64,000 nt of DNA from Pseudomonas coleopterorum (GTDB taxonomy: Bacteria > Pseudomonadota > Gammaproteobacteria > Pseudomonadales > Pseudomonadaceae), in the NCBI RefSeq assembly GCF_900105555.1, contig NZ_FNTZ01000001.1, forward strand, positions 3,475,501-3,539,500, written 5' to 3'. Numbering within the stretch: position 1 is the stretch's first letter; each line of letters starts with the position of its first letter. A model generated the notes under the pieces. The model saw only the letters and a program-made list of their open reading frames with translations, did no database searches and was not told the origin of the DNA. The position numbers were made by a program, and so were the translations under genes. This document shows positions 41,723-52,127 of this stretch, in pieces.

Positions 41723-42127
41723 TCAGGCCTTGGCAATCTCTGGCGTCAGCAGCCATTCGGCACTGTCATTCCAGACGTCCATGCGGACTATCTTGCCATC
41801 CCGCACCTCGAATCGATCCAGGTAACGGTTGCCCGAGAAACTGCGGCCATCAGCCCATTCACCATAAAGCGTTCCGTTTGAATACACCACGGTGTGATCA
41901 CCACGGTCCATCCAGTCGAAATTACCCAGGGCTTTCTTGACCCACGCGTAGCGTGAACCGTTGAACGCAGTGATTGCCTGGGGATCGGGCATCACCCGTC
42001 CGCCGGTGAAGGTGATCTGCACATCCTCACTCATGAACGTCGCGGCGCGGACCGGATCCGGAGCCATCGAGGCCTCGAGGAAACTGCTAACAATCTGTAC
42101 GTCTTTGTTTATATCGATCATCGTCAT
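41723..42127 (-). CDS. NTF2-like (SnoaL-type) protein
   Basis: A 134-residue single-domain protein (or 132 from the ATG at 42121, which is better spaced from its AGGAG site). It has the NTF2-like pattern: an N-terminal helix pair (VSSFLEASMAPDPVRAATFMSEDVQITF), and a curved beta-sheet with YLDRFEVRDGKIVRMDVWNDSAEW. Such proteins act as small-molecule isomerases, dehydratases or binding proteins. It is divergent from the ABC importer operon with 179 nt between, so it may act on the same compound. Specific reaction unknown. Confidence 0.8.
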   Translation of the reverse strand: MTMIDINKDVQIVSSFLEASMAPDPVRAATFMSEDVQITFTGGRVMPDPQAITAFNGSRYAWVKKALGNFDWMDRGDHTVVYSNGTLYGEWADGRSFSGNRYLDRFEVRDGKIVRMDVWNDSAEWLLTPEIAKA

Positions 42128-42157: not shown

Positions 42158-42171
42158 GCGGATGCATCCGC
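42158..42171. promoter_or_regulatory. 14-bp perfect palindrome, candidate operator
   Basis: GCGGATGCATCCGC is a perfect dyad located 31 bp before the NTF2-like ATG, inside the divergent region shared with the ABC operon. Its sequence differs from the TGCTAGCA motif nearby, so it may bind a second regulator. Confidence 0.4.
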
Positions 42172-42260
42172 TTGGTGCAAAACGCTTTATTTTGGCGCGC
42201 AGACTGCGGTATTCACGGACATATCGGCCATTTTTGTGGATCCAGCGACTGGCATCCTAC

Positions 42261-42291
42261 TTGCTAGCAATAAATATGCAAATGCTAGCAA
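42261..42291 (+). promoter_or_regulatory. Paired TGCTAGCA palindromes (candidate GntR-family operator)
   Basis: TTGCTAGCAA (42261-42270), a perfect 10-bp palindrome, and a second TGCTAGCA (42283-42290), 21 bp apart centre to centre, just before the AGGAG site of the ABC substrate-binding gene. A related pair sits in front of the gamma-glutamyltransferase-like gene at 50461-50491. The GntR-family gene between them is the natural candidate to bind both. Confidence 0.65.
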
Positions 42292-42306
42292 TCAGGAGAG
42301 TAAACC

Positions 42307-43500
42307 ATGGCCACCTGGCTTCCAAACCTGCAACGTCTGCTGTTCCCCGTGGCTGCGGCAGCCACGCTAAACCTGGCGATGATCCAAGGCGCGCAAGCGG
42401 CCGAACCGCCGATCAAAGTCGGTTTGTTAGCCGCCCTTTCGGGCCAATCGGCCAAGTCCGGGGAAGCCCTGACCCGCGGCCTGACCATGGCCATCAATGA
42501 GGTCAATGCCAGCGGCGGCGTGCTTGGCCGTCAGTTGGAGCTGGTGCGTCGAGATGATGAAAGCAACCCGTCCAAGGGGATGCTCGCCGCGCGCGAGCTG
42601 GTCCAGCGCGAGAAGGTCACCGTGCTGTTCGGCGGACTGGACACGCCAGTTTCCCTGGCTATCGTGCCGCTGGCCAATCAACTCAAAGTACCGTTCATGG
42701 GCATCTGGGCCGCGGGTACGAAAATCACCGAGAACGGTGCGGCAGAAAACTACGTGTTCCGGGTCTCTGCCGTCGATGAGCTGGTGGACGAGGCCCTGGT
42801 GCAATACGGGGTCGACAACGGCATGAAAAAGCCGGGCATGATCCTCATCAATAATCCCTGGGGCGAATCCAACGAGGCAGGTTTCAAACGCGCCCTGGAA
42901 AAACGCAGCCTGGCCAATGCCGGTGTCGAGCGCATTCAGGACAGCGATTTGGACGTGGTTCCGCAATTGACTCGCCTGAAAAACGCCGGTGCGGACACTC
43001 TGCTGATGGTGGGCAATGTGGGTCCTTCGGCACAGGTGGTCAAATCCCTGGACCGCATGGGCTGGGACGTGCCTGTGGTTTCTCACTGGGGGCCGGCGGG
43101 TGGTCGTTTCGGCGAACTGGCGGGGCCGAACGCGTCCAAGGTCCATTTCATTCAGACCTACGTGTTCACGGAACACAACGGCGCCAAGGGCGATGCACTG
43201 CTGGCCGCATTGAAGACGGCCTACCCGCAGATCAAGACCGTGGCCGACGTCACCCCGGCAGTCGGCATCGCCAATGCGTACGACGCGCTGCATCTCGCCG
43301 CTCAAGCCATCGAAAAGGCCGGCACCACGCAGGGCCCTGCCGTGCGCGACGGTTTCTACGCAGTCACGGACTATGACGGCTTGATCAAGCACTACAAGCA
43401 GCCGTTCAGCCCATCCAAGCATGATGCCCTGGGCCCTGACGACTATATCTTCACCCACTTCGTCAACGACCAGATCGTACCGCTCAAGCCTCAGGAGTAA
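42307..43500 (+). CDS. ABC transporter substrate-binding protein (branched-chain/amide type)
   Basis: Periplasmic binding protein of 397 residues that delivers substrate to the importer encoded next. A Sec signal peptide ends near AQAAEPP (about residue 35). The mature part starts IKVGLLAALSGQSAKSGEALTRGL, the Leu/Ile/Val-binding-protein family pattern, and later NPWGESNEAGFKR and VGNVGPSAQVVKSLDRMGW. AGGAG lies six bases before the ATG. Ligand is not predictable; such proteins bind amino acids, amides, urea or aromatic acids. The downstream hydrolases suggest an amide or amide-like ligand. Confidence 0.92.
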   Translation: MATWLPNLQRLLFPVAAAATLNLAMIQGAQAAEPPIKVGLLAALSGQSAKSGEALTRGLTMAINEVNASGGVLGRQLELVRRDDESNPSKGMLAARELVQREKVTVLFGGLDTPVSLAIVPLANQLKVPFMGIWAAGTKITENGAAENYVFRVSAVDELVDEALVQYGVDNGMKKPGMILINNPWGESNEAGFKRALEKRSLANAGVERIQDSDLDVVPQLTRLKNAGADTLLMVGNVGPSAQVVKSLDRMGWDVPVVSHWGPAGGRFGELAGPNASKVHFIQTYVFTEHNGAKGDALLAALKTAYPQIKTVADVTPAVGIANAYDALHLAAQAIEKAGTTQGPAVRDGFYAVTDYDGLIKHYKQPFSPSKHDALGPDDYIFTHFVNDQIVPLKPQE

Positions 43501-43503
43501 GCG

Positions 43504-44373
43504 ATGTTCACCGCCGCCGTTATCACCGGGCTCGGCCTGGGCAGCATGTACGCTTTGTTGGCATTGGGTTTTCACCTCACCTACGTCGTATCGCGCACCG
43601 TCAACTTTGCCCAGGGCAGCGCCATGATGGTCGGTGCGGTGCTCGGCTACCTGTTTTGCATCAACTGGGGCTGGCCATTGTGGCTGGGCGTGCCACTGAC
43701 ACTGATCCTCTGTGCGTTGTATGGCTTGGTGATCGAGCGCTACCTGGTACGGCCCTTCCACAGCCGTGGTTCGCAGGCCTGGCTGATGGCAACGGTGGCG
43801 GGCGGAATTCTGGTGGACAACCTTGCGCTGTTTACCTTCGGCAAGGAACCTCGGCAGTTCGAGAGCCGCTTGGTGAACCTGAATGTCGAGCTGTTCGGCA
43901 GCCACATCAGTGCACTGCAGCTGCTGATTCCACTGGCAGGCGCGGCCGTCGCCCTGGCGCTGTACCTGGTACGGCGTTACACCCGACTGGGCAAGGTACT
44001 GGAAGCCTGCGTGCAAAATCCGCGCGCCGCGATGCTGATGGGCATCAACGTCAATCGTGTGGTCGCCATCGCCTTTGCGCTGTCGACCGTCTTCGCGGCG
44101 GTGGCGGGCCTGTTGATTGCGCCACTGTTCAGCGTCAACGCGGAAATGGGCCTGTTGTTCGGCCTGAAAGCCTTTGCGGTGGCGATTCTCGGTGGCATCG
44201 GCAGCGCGGGCGGTGTGTTCGCCGCCGGATTGCTGTTCGGCCTGGCCGAGGCGTTGATCACCCTGTACTTCGGCTCGGCATTCACCCAGATATTCACGTT
44301 TGCGCTGGTCATTCTGGCGCTGGCGATTCGGCCTAACGGCCTGTTCGGCAGCCGGGTATTGGTGAAAGTATGA
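43504..44373 (+). CDS. ABC transporter permease, LivH type
   Basis: First permease of the importer: 289 residues, about eight hydrophobic helices, and the LivH motifs LGLGSMYALLALGFHLTYVVSRTVNFAQGS at the N-terminus and ILGGIGSAGGVFAAGLLFGL near the C-terminus. It starts 3 nt after the binding-protein stop and overlaps the next gene in an ATGA junction, so translation is coupled. The partner permease is the N-terminal domain of the fused protein. Confidence 0.94.
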   Translation: MFTAAVITGLGLGSMYALLALGFHLTYVVSRTVNFAQGSAMMVGAVLGYLFCINWGWPLWLGVPLTLILCALYGLVIERYLVRPFHSRGSQAWLMATVAGGILVDNLALFTFGKEPRQFESRLVNLNVELFGSHISALQLLIPLAGAAVALALYLVRRYTRLGKVLEACVQNPRAAMLMGINVNRVVAIAFALSTVFAAVAGLLIAPLFSVNAEMGLLFGLKAFAVAILGGIGSAGGVFAAGLLFGLAEALITLYFGSAFTQIFTFALVILALAIRPNGLFGSRVLVKV

Positions 44374-46862
44374 ACAACCCCAAAACCCTGGTCGCTCCAG
44401 CGTTCATCGCCTTGCTCGCTGTGGTCTGCGGCGTCATGGCGTTCACGCTCGACAGCTACTCGTTACTGGTTTTTACCCTCTGCGCCCTGGCGGCGGTGGT
44501 CGGCGTCGGCCTCAATATCCTGATTGGCCTGAGCGGACAGATTTCATTCGGGCATATCGCGTTCTATGCGATAGGCGCCTATGTATCGGCACTCCTGAGC
44601 ATGGCCGGATGGACGCTGTGGCTGGCCCTGCCAATGGCCGGTGCGGTAGCGGGTCTGATTGGCGCGCTGCTGGCGATCCCCGCGCTACGGGTCAGCGGCC
44701 CTTACCTGGCGATGATCACCATCGCCTTTGCGTTCGTGGTGCATCACGGCTTGATCGAATGGCGGGACGTGACCGGTGGCTCCAACGGCTTGATGGGTAT
44801 CCCGCTACCGGAATTCGCCGGCCTGGATCCGGCGATCCTGCTCGCCCTGCTGGCCGCCGCGCTGATGATCGGCGCGCTGCTGTTCTATCGACGCCTGAGC
44901 CAGAGCGGCTGGGGCAAGGCCATGCGTGCGGTGAAAACCTCGGAAATCGCGGCACGCTCGCTGGGCTTCAATCCGGTGATCAGCAAGACCCTGGCGTTCG
45001 CATTGTCCGCCGCCCTGACCGGGCTGGCAGGCGGTTTGCTCGCGCCACTACTGATGTTCATCAACCCGGAATCCTTTCCCTTCTCCCAATCCATCCTGTT
45101 CGTTCTGGCCGTGATCGTGGGCGGCAGTGGCATGCTGTTCGGGCCGCTGATCGGCGCAGTGTTGATCGTGCTGGTCCCGGAACTGCTCTCGGATTTTGCC
45201 GAATACCGGCTGCTGATCTTCTCCCTGCTCCTGCTCATCGTATTGTGGATCGCGCCCAACGGACTGCTGGGTGCCCTTGCCCGACGCCTGATCAAACCGG
45301 TGCGCTTGCTGCCGCCGACGTCCATCGATCAAGCACGCATGGCCGCGCATCTACGCAGCCGTGGCCCGTCCTCAGGGTTGCGGGTTTCCGATATCGGCAT
45401 TCGCTTCGGTGGTGTACAGGCCGCGCAACACGTCAGCCTGCAGGCACCCGCTGGCAGTATCACCAGCATCATCGGGCCCAACGGTGCGGGCAAAACCACC
45501 GTTCTGAATATGATCAGTGGATTTTACGCACCGGACAGCGGCCAGATCGAGTTGCAGCAACCGCTGGCCGGCCTACCCGCCTGGAAAACCGCCAGGGCCG
45601 GCATCGCCCGTACTTACCAGACCACCTTGCTGTTCGGCGAAATGTCCGTACTCGACAATCTGTTGGTGGCGATGCAGAAGGGACGCCTGGGTCTGCCATT
45701 CAGCCGCGCCCTGGACACACAACGCAGCCTGGCGCTGGATCTGCTGGCATTGGTGGGCTACCGCGGCGAGGTGAATATTCCCGCCGAAGATTTGCCTCAC
45801 GTAGACCGTCGCCTGGTGGAAATAGCCCGGGCGCTGGCGACCGCACCGGCCGTATTGCTGCTGGATGAACCTGCGGCGGGCCTCAGTCGTCGCGACACCG
45901 ACGACTTGGCGACACTGCTGCGCAAGCTGGCGGACTTCGGCCTCACGGTCATTCTGGTCGAGCACGACATGACGCTGGTCATGTCGGTGTCCGAGCATTT
46001 ACTGGTGCTTGATGCTGGCAAGCCGATCGCCTCGGGGCCGCCGTCTGAAATCCGCCAGAATCCGCAAGTGATCGCGGCCTATCTGGGCGGCACCGACTAT
46101 CAGGCCACCGCGCGTGCCCAACCCTGGGCCGGTAGCCGCGACACGCGTCTGTACGTCAAGGATCTGGTCATTGACTACGGCGCGTCCGCCGTGGTCAACA
46201 AAGTCAATCTGCTGGTCAATCCTGGCGAGCTGGTGGCCATTCTCGGCGCGAACGGCGCTGGCAAATCGAGCATTCTGCAATGCCTGGCCGGCCTGCATCG
46301 CGCCAGCAGCGGCAGCATCCTGCTCGACAACGAAAATATCGAACAGACCAGCGCCAGCCTGATTGCTGCGCAGGGCCTGGCACTGGTGCCCGAAGGCCGT
46401 CAGGTCTTCCCTTACCTGAGCGTGCGCGACAATTTGCTACTGGGCGGTTACTCACGCCGCGAAGCCTTCGATGCCGACGCTGAAATCGAGGCCATCCTCA
46501 AGCGCTTCCCTCGCCTGCGCGATCGCATCGACAACCCGGCCGGCCTGCTGTCCGGTGGTGAACAGCAAATGGTTGCCGTGGGTCGCGGTCTGATGGCGAA
46601 GCCGAAAATCCTGTTGCTCGACGAACCCTCCCTGGGCCTGTCGCCCGCCATGATCGGCGAGCTTTACGACGCGCTGGCTGCCCTGCGTGACGAGGGCGTG
46701 ACCATTCTGCTGGTGGACCAGATGGCCAACCTGGCGCTGCAAGTGGCAGATCGTGCGTATGTGCTGGAAATCGGAACCATCGTGAAAACCGGCAGCGCCG
46801 CTCAATTGCGTGAAGACAAAGACCTGGCTGCGGCCTACCTGGGCGAAGGTGTCAGTGCATGA
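44370..46862 (+). CDS. Fused ABC importer: LivM permease + LivG ATPase + LivF ATPase
   Basis: A single 830-residue protein combining what are usually three genes. Residues 1-310: LivM-type permease (NILIGLSGQISFGHIAFYAIGAY; about nine helices). Residues 330-580: first ATPase with Walker A GPNGAGKTT (369-377) and Walker B VLLLDEPAAG, but the signature motif reads LPHVD (475-479) in place of an LSGGQ-like sequence, with Val where the Gly should be. Residues 595-830: second ATPase with Walker A GANGAGKSS (626-634), a normal LSGGEQ signature and LLLDEPSLG. Overlaps livH-like and the amidohydrolase by 4 nt at each end. Confidence 0.95.
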   Translation: MNNPKTLVAPAFIALLAVVCGVMAFTLDSYSLLVFTLCALAAVVGVGLNILIGLSGQISFGHIAFYAIGAYVSALLSMAGWTLWLALPMAGAVAGLIGALLAIPALRVSGPYLAMITIAFAFVVHHGLIEWRDVTGGSNGLMGIPLPEFAGLDPAILLALLAAALMIGALLFYRRLSQSGWGKAMRAVKTSEIAARSLGFNPVISKTLAFALSAALTGLAGGLLAPLLMFINPESFPFSQSILFVLAVIVGGSGMLFGPLIGAVLIVLVPELLSDFAEYRLLIFSLLLLIVLWIAPNGLLGALARRLIKPVRLLPPTSIDQARMAAHLRSRGPSSGLRVSDIGIRFGGVQAAQHVSLQAPAGSITSIIGPNGAGKTTVLNMISGFYAPDSGQIELQQPLAGLPAWKTARAGIARTYQTTLLFGEMSVLDNLLVAMQKGRLGLPFSRALDTQRSLALDLLALVGYRGEVNIPAEDLPHVDRRLVEIARALATAPAVLLLDEPAAGLSRRDTDDLATLLRKLADFGLTVILVEHDMTLVMSVSEHLLVLDAGKPIASGPPSEIRQNPQVIAAYLGGTDYQATARAQPWAGSRDTRLYVKDLVIDYGASAVVNKVNLLVNPGELVAILGANGAGKSSILQCLAGLHRASSGSILLDNENIEQTSASLIAAQGLALVPEGRQVFPYLSVRDNLLLGGYSRREAFDADAEIEAILKRFPRLRDRIDNPAGLLSGGEQQMVAVGRGLMAKPKILLLDEPSLGLSPAMIGELYDALAALRDEGVTILLVDQMANLALQVADRAYVLEIGTIVKTGSAAQLREDKDLAAAYLGEGVSA

Positions 46863-48082
46863 AGGCGATGAAGATCATCAATGTGCGGCTTGGCGCCGAT
46901 AACCACTTGAGCGAGCTACAGGTGGAGAACGGCTATTTCGTCGAAGCCTTGAGCGCCGACGCAGGCCCATGGGAAACCCTCGATCTGCGTGGGCAGCTCG
47001 TCATGCCCGGCCTGATCGAAACCCACATTCACCTGGACAAAGCCTGCATCATGCAGCGATGCCATCTTCAGGAAGGCACGTTGGCGGAAGCGGTGGCCCA
47101 AACCCGAGCGGCCAAAGCCGGGTTTACCGAAGACGATGTGTATCGGCGCGGTGCGCAGGTGCTGGACAAGGCCATCGTGCAAGGCACCACGCACATGCGC
47201 ACTCATGTGGAGCTGGATCCACAGATCGGCTTGATCGGTTTCCATGCCATTCGCCGTTTGCAGGCCGACTATGCATGGGCGATCACCCTGGAACTGTGTG
47301 TGTTTCCGCAGGAAGGAATGCTCAACAACCCAGGGACCGAGGCACTGTTGTGCCAGGCGCTGGAAAGCGGTGCAACGGTCCTGGGTGGGTGCCCGTATAT
47401 GGACAGCGACCCGCTGGGGCAGATCCAGCGGCTATTCGAACTGGCCACACGCTACGACTGCGACCTGGACCTGCATCTGGATTTCGATTTGAACCCCGAA
47501 GGCCTGACCGTCATGGAAGTCGCGCGCTGCACTCGGCTGCATGGGTGGGGCGGACGTGTGACCATCGGCCACGTGACCAAGCTGTCCGCCTTGCCCCAGG
47601 AATCACTGACGGTGCTCGCACTGGAGCTGGCCGAAGCGGGCGTTCAGGTGACCTGCCTGCCCAGCACCGACCTGTTCCTGATGGGTCGCGACGTGTTCCA
47701 CAACAAACCTCGGGGGCTGGCACCGCTGGCGCATCTACACGCCTGCGGCGTGACGTGTTCGGTGTCCACCAACAATGTCGGCAACCCCTTTACGCCCTAT
47801 GGCGATGCTTCGCTGGTGCGTCAGGCCAACCTCTTCGCCAACGTCAGCCAGATGGGCACAGTGCCGCAGTTGCTGCAGTGCCTGGCCTGGGTATCCAGCG
47901 AATCGGCACGCCTGCTCAGGCTGAAGGATTACGGCCTGCTACCGGGCTGCCGCGCCGACTTCATCGTCTTCGACGCGCCTTCGCCAGCAGCGGTGATCGC
48001 CGAGATAAGCGCTCCGGTAATGGGCTTCAAGGGTGGCAGGCAAACATTCAGTCGACCGGTCGGGACGTTGCTGAGGCCATGA
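46859..48082 (+). CDS. Amidohydrolase, cytosine-deaminase (CodA) fold, with changed active site
   Basis: A 407-residue TIM-barrel metal hydrolase that aligns with CodA along its length: METAL motif ETHIHLDK, VFPQEG (CodA Gln156 region), LDLHLDFD and VTIGHVTK with conserved His. Two positions differ: the CodA HCDE Glu (general acid, 217) is Phe here (HLDF), and the CodA metal/catalytic Asp313 (GHDD) is Asn (STNN). It is probably not a cytosine deaminase; a related hydrolysis of an amide, cyclic amide or N-substituted amine is likely. Last gene of the importer operon, ATG overlapping the previous stop. Confidence 0.88.
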   Translation: MKAMKIINVRLGADNHLSELQVENGYFVEALSADAGPWETLDLRGQLVMPGLIETHIHLDKACIMQRCHLQEGTLAEAVAQTRAAKAGFTEDDVYRRGAQVLDKAIVQGTTHMRTHVELDPQIGLIGFHAIRRLQADYAWAITLELCVFPQEGMLNNPGTEALLCQALESGATVLGGCPYMDSDPLGQIQRLFELATRYDCDLDLHLDFDLNPEGLTVMEVARCTRLHGWGGRVTIGHVTKLSALPQESLTVLALELAEAGVQVTCLPSTDLFLMGRDVFHNKPRGLAPLAHLHACGVTCSVSTNNVGNPFTPYGDASLVRQANLFANVSQMGTVPQLLQCLAWVSSESARLLRLKDYGLLPGCRADFIVFDAPSPAAVIAEISAPVMGFKGGRQTFSRPVGTLLRP

Positions 48083-48103
48083 TTGAACGGGCAGGCCTGC
48101 TCG

Positions 48104-48796
48104 TCAGCCACTCAGCGCCTGCTTGAGGTTGAACTCCTCCAAGGCGCGCTCTTCCAGCGCCAACTGCCCTTCCAGTTCGTCCAGGTGCTCCAGCATGACC
48201 CGTACGGCCCCCGCGTTATCGCCCTGTTCCAGCGCGGTGATGATCTGCTGATGTTCGTCCGGCGCGCATGACGGCACATCGTTGCGCTGGTACAGCGCCA
48301 CGATCAATGAGCTGCGCACCATCAGATTGCCAAGGATATCGCTGAGCACGACGTTTCCACTGATCTCGCCGAGCATGAGGTGAAATTCACTCAGCTCGCG
48401 AACGATGGCGCGTCGATCGGTATCGCTGGTGGCTTTGCGCTCGTTGTTCATATGGCTGGCAATGCGCTGGCGGTGCTTGCGCATCACGGCCGGGGTAATG
48501 GCCTCGACGATCGCCCGTTCGATGGCGCGACGGGCGCTGAAGATATCCCGCGCCTCCTTGGCTGTGGGCTGGGCCACCATGGCGCCCCGATTGGCTTCGA
48601 TGGTCACTACTTTCTGCATCGCCAGCCGCTGCAGGGCGACCTGCACGTGATTGCGGTTGGCCTGCAGGGTTTCGACGATGTGGGCTTCGACCAACCGAGT
48701 GCCGGGCGGCAGGCGATGGTGGGCAATAGCCTTGAACAGCGCATCGACGATACGCTGCACCTCAAGCTGTTTGGCAGTGACGGTACTCAACCCCAT
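48104..48796 (-). CDS. GntR-family transcriptional regulator with FCD domain
   Basis: A 230-residue regulator: winged helix-turn-helix (residues 10-80; LPPGTRLVEAHIVETLQANRNHVQVALQRLAMQKVV) and an all-helical FCD ligand domain (95-220). It sits between the importer operon and the gamma-glutamyltransferase-like gene, both of which have TGCTAGCA-type palindromes upstream; weaker versions (TGTCTAGA, 48809-48816; TGGCTAGT, 48840-48847) occur before its own start, which suggests autoregulation. The effector is probably the imported compound or a product. Confidence 0.92.
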   Translation of the reverse strand: MGLSTVTAKQLEVQRIVDALFKAIAHHRLPPGTRLVEAHIVETLQANRNHVQVALQRLAMQKVVTIEANRGAMVAQPTAKEARDIFSARRAIERAIVEAITPAVMRKHRQRIASHMNNERKATSDTDRRAIVRELSEFHLMLGEISGNVVLSDILGNLMVRSSLIVALYQRNDVPSCAPDEHQQIITALEQGDNAGAVRVMLEHLDELEGQLALEERALEEFNLKQALSG

Positions 48797-48871
48797 CGTT
48801 TCCTCTGTTGTCTAGAAAGCCTCATGCCTATACACGAGATGGCTAGTATCCGGCAAATACCCGTTCAACCT

Positions 48872-50443
48872 TCAGTCTGCCTGACCAAGTGCGGTACCCT
48901 CGCCTCGCGGATCATGCATGGCACTGCGCCGCCCGTGGGCATCGATGGCGATGATACCGGCATGGCCCGTCATCGGGCTCTGCGCCGGTATGATTTCCAC
49001 CCCATGACCCAGCGCCGCCAGGCCTTCGATGCTCGCGGCGCTCATGTCGCCTTCGAGTTTGAGGTTGTCGGTGCTGTCGAAAAAACTGCGGCCCAGCAAA
49101 AAGCGGGGGAAGCCCAAGGCCTGATCGATAGGCTGCTGATAGTCGATGAGCTGCGTCGCCAGGACCATCTGCGTCTGCGGTTGACCATCGCCTCCCTGAG
49201 TGCCGAAGAACCAGCGGCGACCATCGTCGGCCAGGTAACAGGATGGGTTGAGCGTATGGGCGGGACGCTTGCCGGGGGCCCAGCCGTTAACGTGTTCGGG
49301 ATTGGCGTTGAAACCCGCAGCACGGTTCTGCCACAGCACTCCGGTGTCGCCCAGAATACAGCCCGAGCCGAAGTCGTGAAACAGGCTCTGGATGAGGCAG
49401 GCCGTCCGGCCCTGGGCATCGGTCGCAGCCATCCAGACCGTATCGGCCGGGCGTCCCGGCTCGTTCCACGGCGCTGCACGCTGATCGTCGATGGCATCGG
49501 CATACCTCTGAACGTGACGCTCATCGAGACTGGCGGCGAAATCCCAAGCGGTGCTCAGCGGATCGCACAACTGCGCGTTGCGGCGCAGCAGACCTTGCTT
49601 GATGGCTTCGACCAGGTAGTGGTAGTAAAGCGCGCTGCCATTGCCGACCTGCGCGAGTGGCTTATGCTGCAGCGCGGCCATGGCCTGCAAGGTATAAAGA
49701 CCCTGGCACGGCGGTGCGACGTTATAGAGTCGGCCCTGCCGGTAAGGGACCGAAACTGGGTCCATCAGCGGTGCGCGCGTGGCCGCCAGGTCGGCCTGGG
49801 TCAGGCCACAACCGAGCCGATCGAACGCCGCCCCGAACGCGTGAGCCAACTCGCCCTGATAGAAGTCCTCGACCCCGTACCTGGCCAGATGCCGCAGCGT
49901 GTTGGCAAGCGCCGGCTGACGCAGCGTATCGCCTGCGCGCAACCAGCGCCCATCGGTCTTGCAGACACCGTGCAAATCCGGCAACTGCTCGATGAGTGGC
50001 TGCCGCAATGTCTGCCAAAACAGCTGGGACTGTGAAACAGGCGTGCCCGCCTCTGCCACGCTTGCGGCGTCCTGCAACAGGTCGGCCCAACCAAAATGCG
50101 AGCCCCACTCCTGCCGGCTGATAGTCGCCGCCGTCTGCCAACTCGCCAGCGCACCCGCCGTGGTGGCGACGGACGATGGACCTCTCAAACCGATGACTCC
50201 GCCGTCGGGCAACCGCTGCCCGGCCTGCCCGATCCCCACGATGGTGCGGACCTGGGTGTCGTGGATCATCCAGAGGGCATCCCCACCCAGGCCGGTCATG
50301 TGCGGGAACACCACGGCCAGCATGGCACTGGCTGCCAGCATGGCATCAATGGCCGTGCCACCCGCATCGAGGATCTGCATCCCTGCGGCACTGGCTTGGG
50401 CGTGAGGCGTGCAGATCACAGCATGAGAAGAGGTAGCGATCAT
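48872..50443 (-). CDS. Gamma-glutamyltransferase-family protein, cytoplasmic
   Basis: An Ntn-hydrolase of 523 residues that self-cleaves into two subunits. N-terminal motif ASAAGMQILDAGGTAIDAMLAA and GLGGDALWMIHD are typical. The new N-terminal Thr of the small subunit should be the Thr in DTVWMAATDAQG (about residue 338). The substrate-region motif RPAHTLNPSCYLADDGRRWFFGTQGGDGQPQTQ is of the YwrD/oxamate-hydrolase-like subgroup rather than classical GGT with PLSSMSPT. No signal peptide, so it acts in the cytoplasm. No strong ribosome site precedes the ATG. A TGCTAGCT/TGTTAGCA pair lies just upstream. Confidence 0.88.
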   Translation of the reverse strand: MIATSSHAVICTPHAQASAAGMQILDAGGTAIDAMLAASAMLAVVFPHMTGLGGDALWMIHDTQVRTIVGIGQAGQRLPDGGVIGLRGPSSVATTAGALASWQTAATISRQEWGSHFGWADLLQDAASVAEAGTPVSQSQLFWQTLRQPLIEQLPDLHGVCKTDGRWLRAGDTLRQPALANTLRHLARYGVEDFYQGELAHAFGAAFDRLGCGLTQADLAATRAPLMDPVSVPYRQGRLYNVAPPCQGLYTLQAMAALQHKPLAQVGNGSALYYHYLVEAIKQGLLRRNAQLCDPLSTAWDFAASLDERHVQRYADAIDDQRAAPWNEPGRPADTVWMAATDAQGRTACLIQSLFHDFGSGCILGDTGVLWQNRAAGFNANPEHVNGWAPGKRPAHTLNPSCYLADDGRRWFFGTQGGDGQPQTQMVLATQLIDYQQPIDQALGFPRFLLGRSFFDSTDNLKLEGDMSAASIEGLAALGHGVEIIPAQSPMTGHAGIIAIDAHGRRSAMHDPRGEGTALGQAD

Positions 50444-50460
50444 GATTCGAGGCCCTGACT

Positions 50461-50491
50461 TTGCTAGCTATCTATGAATTTATTGTTAGCA
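50461..50491 (-). promoter_or_regulatory. Second paired TGCTAGC-type operator
   Basis: TGCTAGCT (50462-50469) and TGTTAGCA (50484-50491), 22 bp apart centre to centre, 19 nt upstream of the gamma-glutamyltransferase-like ATG. The half-sites match the perfect palindromes before the ABC operon with one or two changes. Same arrangement: two sites about two helical turns apart. Confidence 0.6.
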
Positions 50492-50612
50492 GAGCAATAA
50501 GTGTGCCGCGCTTTTTCCTAGTGGCCGGTGAGGCTCGGGTTGGGCAAACGGCAGTGGGCTGAATCAATGGCGGCGAAGAGGATCTTCAGGCTTTCAGACA
50601 GTGTTTCCTATC

Positions 50613-50643: not shown

Positions 50644-51810
50644 TCATTGCGCGGCGTTGAACTGCGGGGTGGCCTCGATAGGCGCCTTGACCAACAGATA
50701 CGGCGGCTGCCGGGTGTCGAACCCCTTGCCCATACGGCTCCACTGCCCCAACGTCACGTACACCGAATCGGCGGTCACGAATACGCCGTCCGGCCACACC
50801 AGCCGCGGGTCGCGCACGACCACGTCGAGGCGGCCATCCGGCCAGCGACGCAGCACTTGGTGATGCTCTGCATCGGTCATGTACAGACGGCCCTGAGCGT
50901 CCATGTCCATCCCGTCGACCATCACCTTCTCCCCTTCATCCTTGATCTGGGCAGCCAGTTGTCGATCATCGAGGCCGAAGTCGGAAAGTGCTGCGGTCGG
51001 CAGACTCCACAGGTGTCGACTGGTGAGCGGCGAATAGAACAGACGCGAACTATCGGGCGTCAGCGCCAGACCATCGACGCCACCGTGAGGGAATGCGGTG
51101 TTCTTGCCGTCGTAGCGCATGGGCACACCGTCGAGCTGGGTGACGAAATCCTTCTGCGCCACGATGGAAGGATGACCGGCAAGCACACGACGCTGCTTCC
51201 CCGTGGCCAGATCCACCACCACCAAAGCCGGGTCGTCGCCGAAAGATGAGTCGGCGACATAAGCGGTGCCTTGACTGCCGTGGGTCAGATCGATGCGCAG
51301 GTCATTCATGTGGCTGTCCTGACGCAGGGCATCCTTGAGCTCGATGGACGTCACGATGCTGTTGCTGCTCAAGTCGATACCCACCACCTTCGCCGCCCCC
51401 GCCGGAATGCCCTGCTTGCCGGCACGCTTGCCATCGTCGATCAACCAGAGGCGCCCACGCCTGTCCAAGGTCATGCCATGCAGGGAAACGAGACGCTTGG
51501 CGTCGGACAGCCCAGACGGCAGGCTCACATCGGCGGAGGGATAGGGAACCAGCTTGCCGTCGACCAACTCGCCCAGCGTCATGCCAGCGTGATCATCGGC
51601 ATGACGCGGAAAACCGACAAAAGTGCGCCCTTCCGGAGTAACCACGATGCCTGACGGCCCTGGGCCGCTGAACGCCGCCACCTCCTGGATCGAACCAATG
51701 GGAACCAGGCTGCGATCAATGGTTTCGGCCTGGGCTGCAGTCGCTGTCAAAGCCAACATCGCGGCCGCCAGGGCGGTGATCGAGGCTCGCTTCAATGGGT
51801 TTTTGGTCAT
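50644..51810 (-). CDS. Periplasmic MRJP/yellow-type beta-propeller (SMP-30-like)
   Basis: A 388-residue protein from the ATG at 51810 with a Sec signal peptide (ITALAAAMLALTATAAQA). The mature part is a six-bladed propeller of the major royal jelly/yellow family, also annotated as L-dopachrome tautomerase-related: PSGIVVTPEGRTFVGFPRH, LHGMTLDRRGRLWLIDDGK, MNDLRIDLTHGSQGTAYVADSSFG, FPHGGVDGLALTPDSSRLFYSPL. Relatives hydrolyse lactones, but the reaction here is not shown. A PtxS-type operator lies 47 nt upstream, which points to sugar-acid metabolism. Located between the transferase gene and tRNA-Ser. Confidence 0.85.
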   Translation of the reverse strand: MTKNPLKRASITALAAAMLALTATAAQAETIDRSLVPIGSIQEVAAFSGPGPSGIVVTPEGRTFVGFPRHADDHAGMTLGELVDGKLVPYPSADVSLPSGLSDAKRLVSLHGMTLDRRGRLWLIDDGKRAGKQGIPAGAAKVVGIDLSSNSIVTSIELKDALRQDSHMNDLRIDLTHGSQGTAYVADSSFGDDPALVVVDLATGKQRRVLAGHPSIVAQKDFVTQLDGVPMRYDGKNTAFPHGGVDGLALTPDSSRLFYSPLTSRHLWSLPTAALSDFGLDDRQLAAQIKDEGEKVMVDGMDMDAQGRLYMTDAEHHQVLRRWPDGRLDVVVRDPRLVWPDGVFVTADSVYVTLGQWSRMGKGFDTRQPPYLLVKAPIEATPQFNAAQ

Positions 51811-52127
51811 CCTTTCCGGGCTCCTGCGGGATGAGGTGGGCTGGTCTGCACTAGGCTCTGAAACCGGTTTCAGAAACGTGCGAAAAAAAACCTGTACGGG
51901 CGTCGAAGGGAACATACGGCGCGACAGGTTCATGGGTATTGAAGGGAGTTGGGTAGGGAAGTTCCACTGGATGAAGGGTGACGTGTGGCTGGGAATGGAC
52001 TGAACGATGGTTGACGGCCGGTGCGTCACGATCGAAGTCGGGGAGTCAGAGACGATCAAATCGACGCAGCCGCCAAACCGAGGCTTGATGGTTAATTCCA
52101 CCGCGTGAAATGGCGTCCAAAACAAAA
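51811..52127. other. Gene-poor region upstream of the MRJP-like gene
   Basis: About 317 nt without a supportable gene. The right end carries the tRNA-Ser terminator. The left end holds the 5' region of the MRJP-like gene with the PtxS-type palindrome and an A8 run (51883-51890). The remaining 200 nt show no clear hairpin, promoter or ORF with coding character. Confidence 0.5.
51858..51873 (-). promoter_or_regulatory. PtxS-type operator palindrome
   Basis: CTGAAACCGGTTTCAG, a perfect 16-bp palindrome that contains the 14-bp operator TGAAACCGGTTTCA recognised by the LacI-family repressor PtxS of Pseudomonas, which responds to 2-ketogluconate. Located 47 nt before the MRJP-like ATG, suitable for repressing its promoter. 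Confidence 0.7.

Follow-up and report, generated by a model that had tools for sequence, protein, structure and literature searches.

Paired dyads on two sigma-54 promoters delimit a candidate GntR/FCD regulon for scavenging a nitrogen-containing compound in Pseudomonas

What controls the import and hydrolysis genes that stand together on contig NZ_FNTZ01000001.1 of Pseudomonas coleopterorum, and what might they serve? The window, i.e. the whole stretch of DNA analysed, comprises 64,000 nt of this contig and its numbering is used for all coordinates (Table 1). It holds an ATP-binding cassette (ABC) importer operon that includes an amidohydrolase gene, a gene for a GntR/FCD regulator (GntR below) and a gene for an N-terminal nucleophile (Ntn) hydrolase related to gamma-glutamyltransferase (GGT). 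We consider it probable (roughly 0.77) that these genes form a two-promoter regulon for scavenging a nitrogen-containing compound: importer, amidohydrolase and GGT-like hydrolase would be transcribed from two sigma-54 promoters, GntR would repress both through paired TGCTAGCA dyads, and an inducer would release it. The regulon is apparently small and complete.

The first-pass annotation of this DNA had pointed to paired sites at 42262/42283, before the ABC operon, and at 50462/50484, before the GGT-like gene. Both pairs are present; the former is exact and the latter has one mismatch in each dyad, with start-to-start spacings of 21 and 22 bp respectively. Single octamers with up to one mismatch occurred at chance level in the whole window (23 observed vs. 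22.2 expected), hence the octamer alone is uninformative. In the 4.92-Mb genome, the ABC pair was the only 21-bp pair with fewer than three mismatches (it has none) and the GGT pair the only such 22-bp pair (two mismatches). Every other match at these spacings had three mismatches, and the forward-strand totals were below those of a reversed-pattern control (20 vs. 32 in the 21-bp scan, 12 vs. 20 in the 22-bp scan). Chance pairing of octamers was ruled out by these scans. No additional regulon member with fewer than three mismatches was found in this genome at 21 or 22 bp, the only spacings at which mismatched pairs were scanned.

The pairs were then followed across Pseudomonas. Twenty-nine named Pseudomonas loci were fetched (GntR 87-96% identical), and the window plus all loci of the series L002-L030 and L091-L109 with a gene start inside the stretch gave 40 ABC and 38 GGT upstream regions. 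The exact 21-bp pair was present in all 26 close loci with a visible ABC start (27/27 including the P. coleopterorum genome itself) and, with more distant loci included, in 38 of the 40 ABC upstreams, counting L095, whose called start falls within the pair. The exceptions were L102, with two mismatches, and L101, which has no second dyad. A pair with at most two mismatches at 21-22 bp was found in 37/38 GGT upstreams; the remaining one (L005) has three. The outcome that the first-pass annotation had named as fatal to its proposal, orthologous clusters without the motif, was not what we observed: the pair was kept at both promoters. L010, being too short, was dropped from the GGT profiles, leaving 37 GGT upstreams in the conservation profile and in the NtrC-site scan. 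Conservation at the GGT promoter was approximately zero from -170 to -25 and rose sharply over the dyads and the -24 element, leaving a clean footprint. That the paired octamers are due to chance, or to shared promoter ancestry without function, is scarcely credible: single octamers are indeed at chance level, but only two such pairs exist in the whole genome, and functionless ancestry is contradicted by the GGT footprint, where almost all sequence further upstream than -24 differs between loci but the element and both dyads persist.

A feature absent from the first-pass annotation is that both pairs accompany sigma-54 promoter elements, contained in TGGCATCCTACTTGCTAGCA and CGGCACACTTATTGCTCTGCTAACA. 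The sigma-54 consensus is TGGCAC-N5-TTGC, with GG and GC 12 bp apart. An element with at least 9 of 11 matches was found in 40/40 ABC upstreams (1.8% in a Markov-shuffle control). Upstream of the GGT-like gene, at least 8 of 11 were matched in 38/38 regions (control 6.2%) and at least 9 in 24/38 (control 1.1%). The ABC promoter of the window has a second element of equal score; the conserved one is listed in Table 1. Sigma-54 transcription starts approximately 12 bp past the -12 GC, which would place the second dyad between about +8 and +21. As the dyads lie on or next to the sigma-54 elements, the arrangement looks like two-layer control. Bound GntR would block sigma-54 RNA polymerase, because the first dyad shares bases with the -12 element or begins 2 bp after it and the second follows shortly after the expected start, and a metabolite of the pathway would relieve this block by releasing GntR. 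The dyad spacings (21 and 22 bp, and 11 bp in a distant cluster described below) are close to whole helical turns and speak for paired GntR/FCD dimers, which would occupy the two dyads of each promoter on the same face of the DNA. Alternatively, GntR could be an activator or a dual regulator, as some FCD regulators act otherwise than as repressors and a pair of sites can also serve to organise DNA at a promoter. We regard this as improbable, since the dyads occupy the -12 element or its immediate vicinity and span the expected start, positions at which binding should block the sigma-54 polymerase.

Co-occurrence was analysed in a sample of 398 Pseudomonas genomes. The exact pair was found in 28, an amidohydrolase orthologue in 29, GntR (at least 63% identical) in 35 and a GGT orthologue (at least 67% identical) in 25. 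Amidohydrolase and GntR were both present in 27 of the 28 exact-pair genomes, and GntR in all 29 amidohydrolase genomes (Fisher p = 2e-38 for pair vs. amidohydrolase, relatedness ignored). Chance alone would give approximately 0.8 exact pairs across the DNA of the 398 genomes, matching the single exception, G379. This genome has no amidohydrolase orthologue and carries the exact TGCTAGCA pair in two copies (L110 on contig 31, and contig 17), at a 24-bp spacing and with a partly palindromic spacer; no cluster genes were found in the single stretch taken. Its pair was treated as unrelated to the regulon on account of the spacing, the two contigs and the missing cluster genes. G074 and G376, the two amidohydrolase genomes in which the exact pair is missing, have degenerate sites. 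In G115, the GntR and GGT-like genes are on one contig and the ABC-amidohydrolase operon on another (347 kb into 561 kb), and pairs are kept at both. Four genomes (G147, G164, G358 and G394) have no GGT orthologue, and in them another ABC importer lies between the GntR and amidohydrolase genes (L091-L094, approximately 7.8-10.6 kb); it was typed in L091 only, where its binding protein is of the NMT1/THI5 type. In L093, a site pair like that of the GGT promoter persists upstream of the GntR gene.

The recognition-helix residues N47-Q52 of GntR were invariant in 48/48 orthologues at least 60% identical. For more distant relatives, 249 genomes were drawn from the phylum, of which 11 held the amidohydrolase; the ten besides the P. 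coleopterorum genome were fetched together with four plasmid loci, giving 14 loci (L138-L151) chosen for holding this enzyme, two of them (L146 and L150) shortened by contig ends. In L142, from another family of the same class, the whole cluster is present in the same order, and its GntR is 54% identical with an identical ANRNHVQ helix. Before its ABC operon, TGCTAGCA-type sites 21 bp apart with one mismatch lie on a sigma-54 element; before its GGT-like gene there are two exact sites 11 bp apart; and a site also precedes its GntR gene. The 19.9 kb of L142 hold 5 sites with at most one mismatch to TTGCTAGCAA, at three promoters, none of them within the matched genes. By contrast, no pair was found in the six loci (L139, L143, L145, L147, L148 and L149) whose GntR is 31-33% identical and has a different helix. 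In L143, the ABC operon is instead preceded by ATTGCATGCAAT and the GGT-like gene by ATTGCATACAAT, with ATTGCATRCAAT palindromes at L143:15235 and L143:16661 (two copies vs. 0.009 expected, for a motif that was spotted before being tested). The ATTGCATRCAAT-type motif was not found in the other five loci of this group. Read from these sequences, L143 suggests that regulator and operator may have been swapped together, with ATTGCATRCAAT in place of TGCTAGCA.

These data bear on whether the dyads are instead the sites of a regulator encoded elsewhere, with the local GntR a bystander. The first-pass annotation had described weaker matches at the regulator's own start; we found no octamer with up to one mismatch near 48796, and the last 100 bp upstream of GntR held one in 0/59 rows, many of them second copies of the same loci. 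Operator sites at the GntR start were rejected for the clade of the window, L142 being the locus that does carry one there. The upstream of the GntR gene is sigma-70-like, TTGCCG-17-GATAAT being seen by eye in many orthologues. Moreover, six genomes (G023, G051, G086, G287, G336 and G387) have a GntR of 63-79% identity whose recognition helix is unchanged, and neither an amidohydrolase orthologue nor the exact pair. The missing autoregulatory site and these six genomes favour a bystander, but GntR and amidohydrolase accompany nearly every exact pair, the sites are kept with the 54% identical GntR of identical helix and absent with the GntR proteins of other helix, and a short palindrome suits a dimer of the FCD type (see ATTGTCAGACAAT of AlkR, PMC12042122). 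We hold the bystander explanation to be quite improbable. At L100 and L103-L107, where GntR is 63-79% identical and the helix unchanged, neither the cluster nor nearby site pairs were found, L100 ending at a contig end. The earlier suggestion that importer, amidohydrolase and transferase form one regulon is supported by the conservation of the pairs, the 27/28 co-occurrence, G115 and the absence of pairs with a different GntR.

An activator layer may lie further upstream of the ABC promoter. Candidate site 1 was found at a fixed distance with at most 4 of 12 consensus mismatches in 38/40 ABC loci (control 2.7%) and at most 3 in 22/40; its right half, TGGTGC, is present in 35/40. Candidate site 2 lies within the same conserved block, with TGG[CAT]GC at a fixed place in 24/40. 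Under nitrogen limitation, these tandem NtrC-like sites would switch on the ABC promoter. It is nevertheless possible, though we think it the lesser likelihood, that the block is the site of another enhancer-binding protein or promoter DNA of the divergently oriented SnoaL gene, and is no NtrC enhancer. The left half-site matches the consensus poorly, and the block could serve the SnoaL gene, given its position 37-71 bp upstream of that gene's start. In favour of NtrC are the fixed distance, the second site 20 bp on and the agreement of the right half with the Pseudomonas NtrC consensus GCACCA-N3-TGGTGC (PMC12977541); and a sigma-54 promoter requires some enhancer-binding protein.

Several observations weigh against a GntR-repressed, NtrC-activated sigma-54 regulon. 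The NtrC-like site has the poor left half and the position near the SnoaL start just described; GGT upstreams had no NtrC-like site at the fixed place (0/37), and sites with at most three mismatches anywhere in 5/37, about chance; and the NtrC scan yielded no clean positive control at glnK of the same genome. A clear sigma-54 element is absent before the GGT-like gene of L142, L101 has lost the second dyad, and the six genomes above have the regulator with its helix and no exact pair. Finally, the preference for repression over activation would follow from site position only.

The gene identities proposed in the first-pass annotation were borne out by domain search, which gave SnoaL-like, Peripla_BP_6, permeases, two ABC ATPase domains, amidohydrolase, GntR with FCD, and G_glu_transpept. 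Both regulator domains scored above their Pfam cut-offs (GntR 35.6 bits vs. 27, FCD 72.7 vs. 24.3). From permease 1 through the permease-ATPase fusion to the amidohydrolase, adjacent genes share 4 bp at each junction, and because of these overlaps they very likely form an operon. No signal-peptide-like segment was seen by eye at the N-terminus of the GGT-like protein (no predictor was run). The GGT-like gene has a major-royal-jelly-type (MRJP) gene (50644-52125, - strand) upstream of it, a neighbour that was found in no fetched loci other than L002 and L003.

Table 1. Genes and candidate control elements of the cluster, in window numbering.
Feature	Coordinates	Strand	Remarks
SnoaL-like (NTF2-fold) small protein	41723..42127	-	divergent from ABC operon; PF12680, 28.1 bits vs. 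cut-off 27
Candidate enhancer site 1, NtrC-like	42164..42178	+	GCATCCGCTTGGTGC; centre ~93 bp upstream of -12 GC
Candidate enhancer site 2	42184..42198	+	GCTTTATTTTGGCGC; 20 bp further on; centre ~73 bp before -12 element
Sigma-54 -24/-12 element, ABC operon	42250..42264	+	TGGCATCCTACTTGC; GG-N10-GC
Operator dyad O1 (candidate)	42262..42269	+	exact TGCTAGCA; TGC common to -12 element
Operator dyad O2 (candidate)	42283..42290	+	exact TGCTAGCA; directly upstream of ABC ribosome-binding site
ABC substrate-binding protein	42307..43500	+	Peripla_BP_6, Liv/urea/amide type; PF13458, 1.4e-55
ABC permease 1	43504..44373	+	PF02653
Fused permease and two ATPase domains	44370..46862	+	PF02653 + 2 x PF00005
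CodA/AtzC-related amidohydrolase	46859..48082	+	Phe and Asn-Asn at positions of CodA catalytic Glu and Asp-Asp
GntR/FCD regulator	48104..48796	-	proposed ligand of O1-O4; PF00392 + PF07729
GGT-fold Ntn hydrolase	48872..50443	-	resembles PDB 5hft; PF01019 (G_glu_transpept)
Operator dyad O4, GGT-like gene (candidate)	50462..50469	-	TGCTAGCT forward, AGCTAGCA on - strand; 1 mismatch
Operator dyad O3, GGT-like gene (candidate)	50484..50491	-	TGTTAGCA forward, TGCTAACA on - strand; 1 mismatch; begins 2 bp after -12 GC
Sigma-54 -24/-12 element, GGT-like gene	50494..50508	-	CGGCACACTTATTGC

What could the pathway act on? The best PDB relatives of the amidohydrolase are the cytosine deaminase CodA and AtzC, and residue positions were set by alignments to PDB relatives. 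In CodA, the catalytic Glu lies in HCDE and the metal Asp in HDD. Close orthologues of the amidohydrolase have HLDF, with Phe for the CodA Glu, in 41/41, and Asn-Asn for Asp-Asp in 41/41 (STNN in 39, SSNN in 2). The 14 distant relatives have Asn-Asn in 14/14 and Phe in 13, the other (L141) having Leu; four histidines (H56, H58, H206 and H238) do not vary across 26 aligned relatives. The best 120 relatives among up to 8000 candidates of a sequence search were all at least 76% identical, and some sources name this subfamily cytosine deaminase. We did not accept this name, as the CodA catalytic acids are replaced.

True GGT has the nucleophile motif TTH, while the GGT-like protein has TVW. It scored 267 bits against TIGR00066 (gamma-glutamyltransferase proper), below the curated cut-off of 357.85. 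Its best matches in a PDB search were two chains of 5hft (E 5e-51 and 1.5e-50), with TVWM at the autoprocessing nucleophile in both proteins. We take 5hft to be the HpxW-type oxamate amidohydrolase of Klebsiella. HpxW frees oxalate and ammonium from oxamate (PMC5270733). No HpxX- or HpxY-like protein was recognised among the eight genes typed by domain search. The first-pass annotation had assigned the hydrolysis to a CodA-fold amidohydrolase and a GGT-like enzyme; the relation to CodA stands, and the rest was too specific, since the CodA acids are absent and the nucleophile motif is that of 5hft and not of true GGT. These features point to a small amide or N-heterocycle as the substrate. Among the 14 distant loci, a SnoaL-like gene accompanies the amidohydrolase in 8 (53-62% identical) and a GGT-like gene in 7, and the SnoaL-like protein is likely a pathway partner. 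On a Rhizobium plasmid (L138:20589-26918), the amidohydrolase relative stands by an annotated 8-oxoguanine deaminase, a second amidohydrolase, a member of the questin oxidase family and a flavin adenine dinucleotide (FAD) oxidoreductase; the GGT-like gene counted for this locus is 14 kb away.

The closest known architecture is HutC on the sigma-54 hut promoter. At hutU of Pseudomonas, a HutC and NtrC/CbrB system, the site of a local GntR-type repressor overlaps a sigma-54 promoter, with NtrC sites upstream, and the genes import and break down a nutrient (PMC12977541 and PMC8871633). By its sequence, the ABC promoter has the same layout, with candidate repressor sites over the sigma-54 promoter and NtrC-like sites upstream; the GGT promoter has no upstream sites. 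The resemblance is one of layout: HutC is a HutC-type regulator with TGTA-N2-TACA as operator, whereas here the regulator has an FCD domain, the operator would be paired TTGCTAGCAA, and neither the genes nor the substrate are the same. AlkR and other GntR/FCD-VanR regulators are of the FCD family and have a short palindromic operator near the promoter; AlkR, however, has one 13-bp palindrome over -10 regions, in contrast to the paired 8-10-bp dyads on sigma-54 promoters found here (for AlkR, PMC12042122). Among the matches listed in a literature search for the octamer string, no title concerned such a regulator. Papers linking the cluster genes, or an FCD regulator with RpoN and this operator in Pseudomonas, were not found in the open literature, subscription papers lying outside the search. 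The control architecture is thus known in kind, while the regulon, the operator and the amidohydrolase signature were not found described in the literature searched.

More tentatively, at a little under even odds, amidohydrolase, SnoaL-like protein, GGT-like hydrolase and importer could constitute an undescribed nitrogen-compound pathway found throughout the Pseudomonadota, with an amidohydrolase of an Asn-Asn subfamily, presumably of altered chemistry, and with regulator and operator changing together (TTGCTAGCAA/ATTGCATRCAAT). For this enzyme family, the analysis flags a subfamily sometimes named cytosine deaminase though it is without the residues of that enzyme. For the control of nitrogen scavenging in Pseudomonas, the cluster would add a case like that of HutC, with a local repressor, here of the FCD type, superimposed on sigma-54 promoters. 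A regulon bounded to two promoters and one regulator also offers a route to the substrate, through the compound that would release GntR from TTGCTAGCAA.

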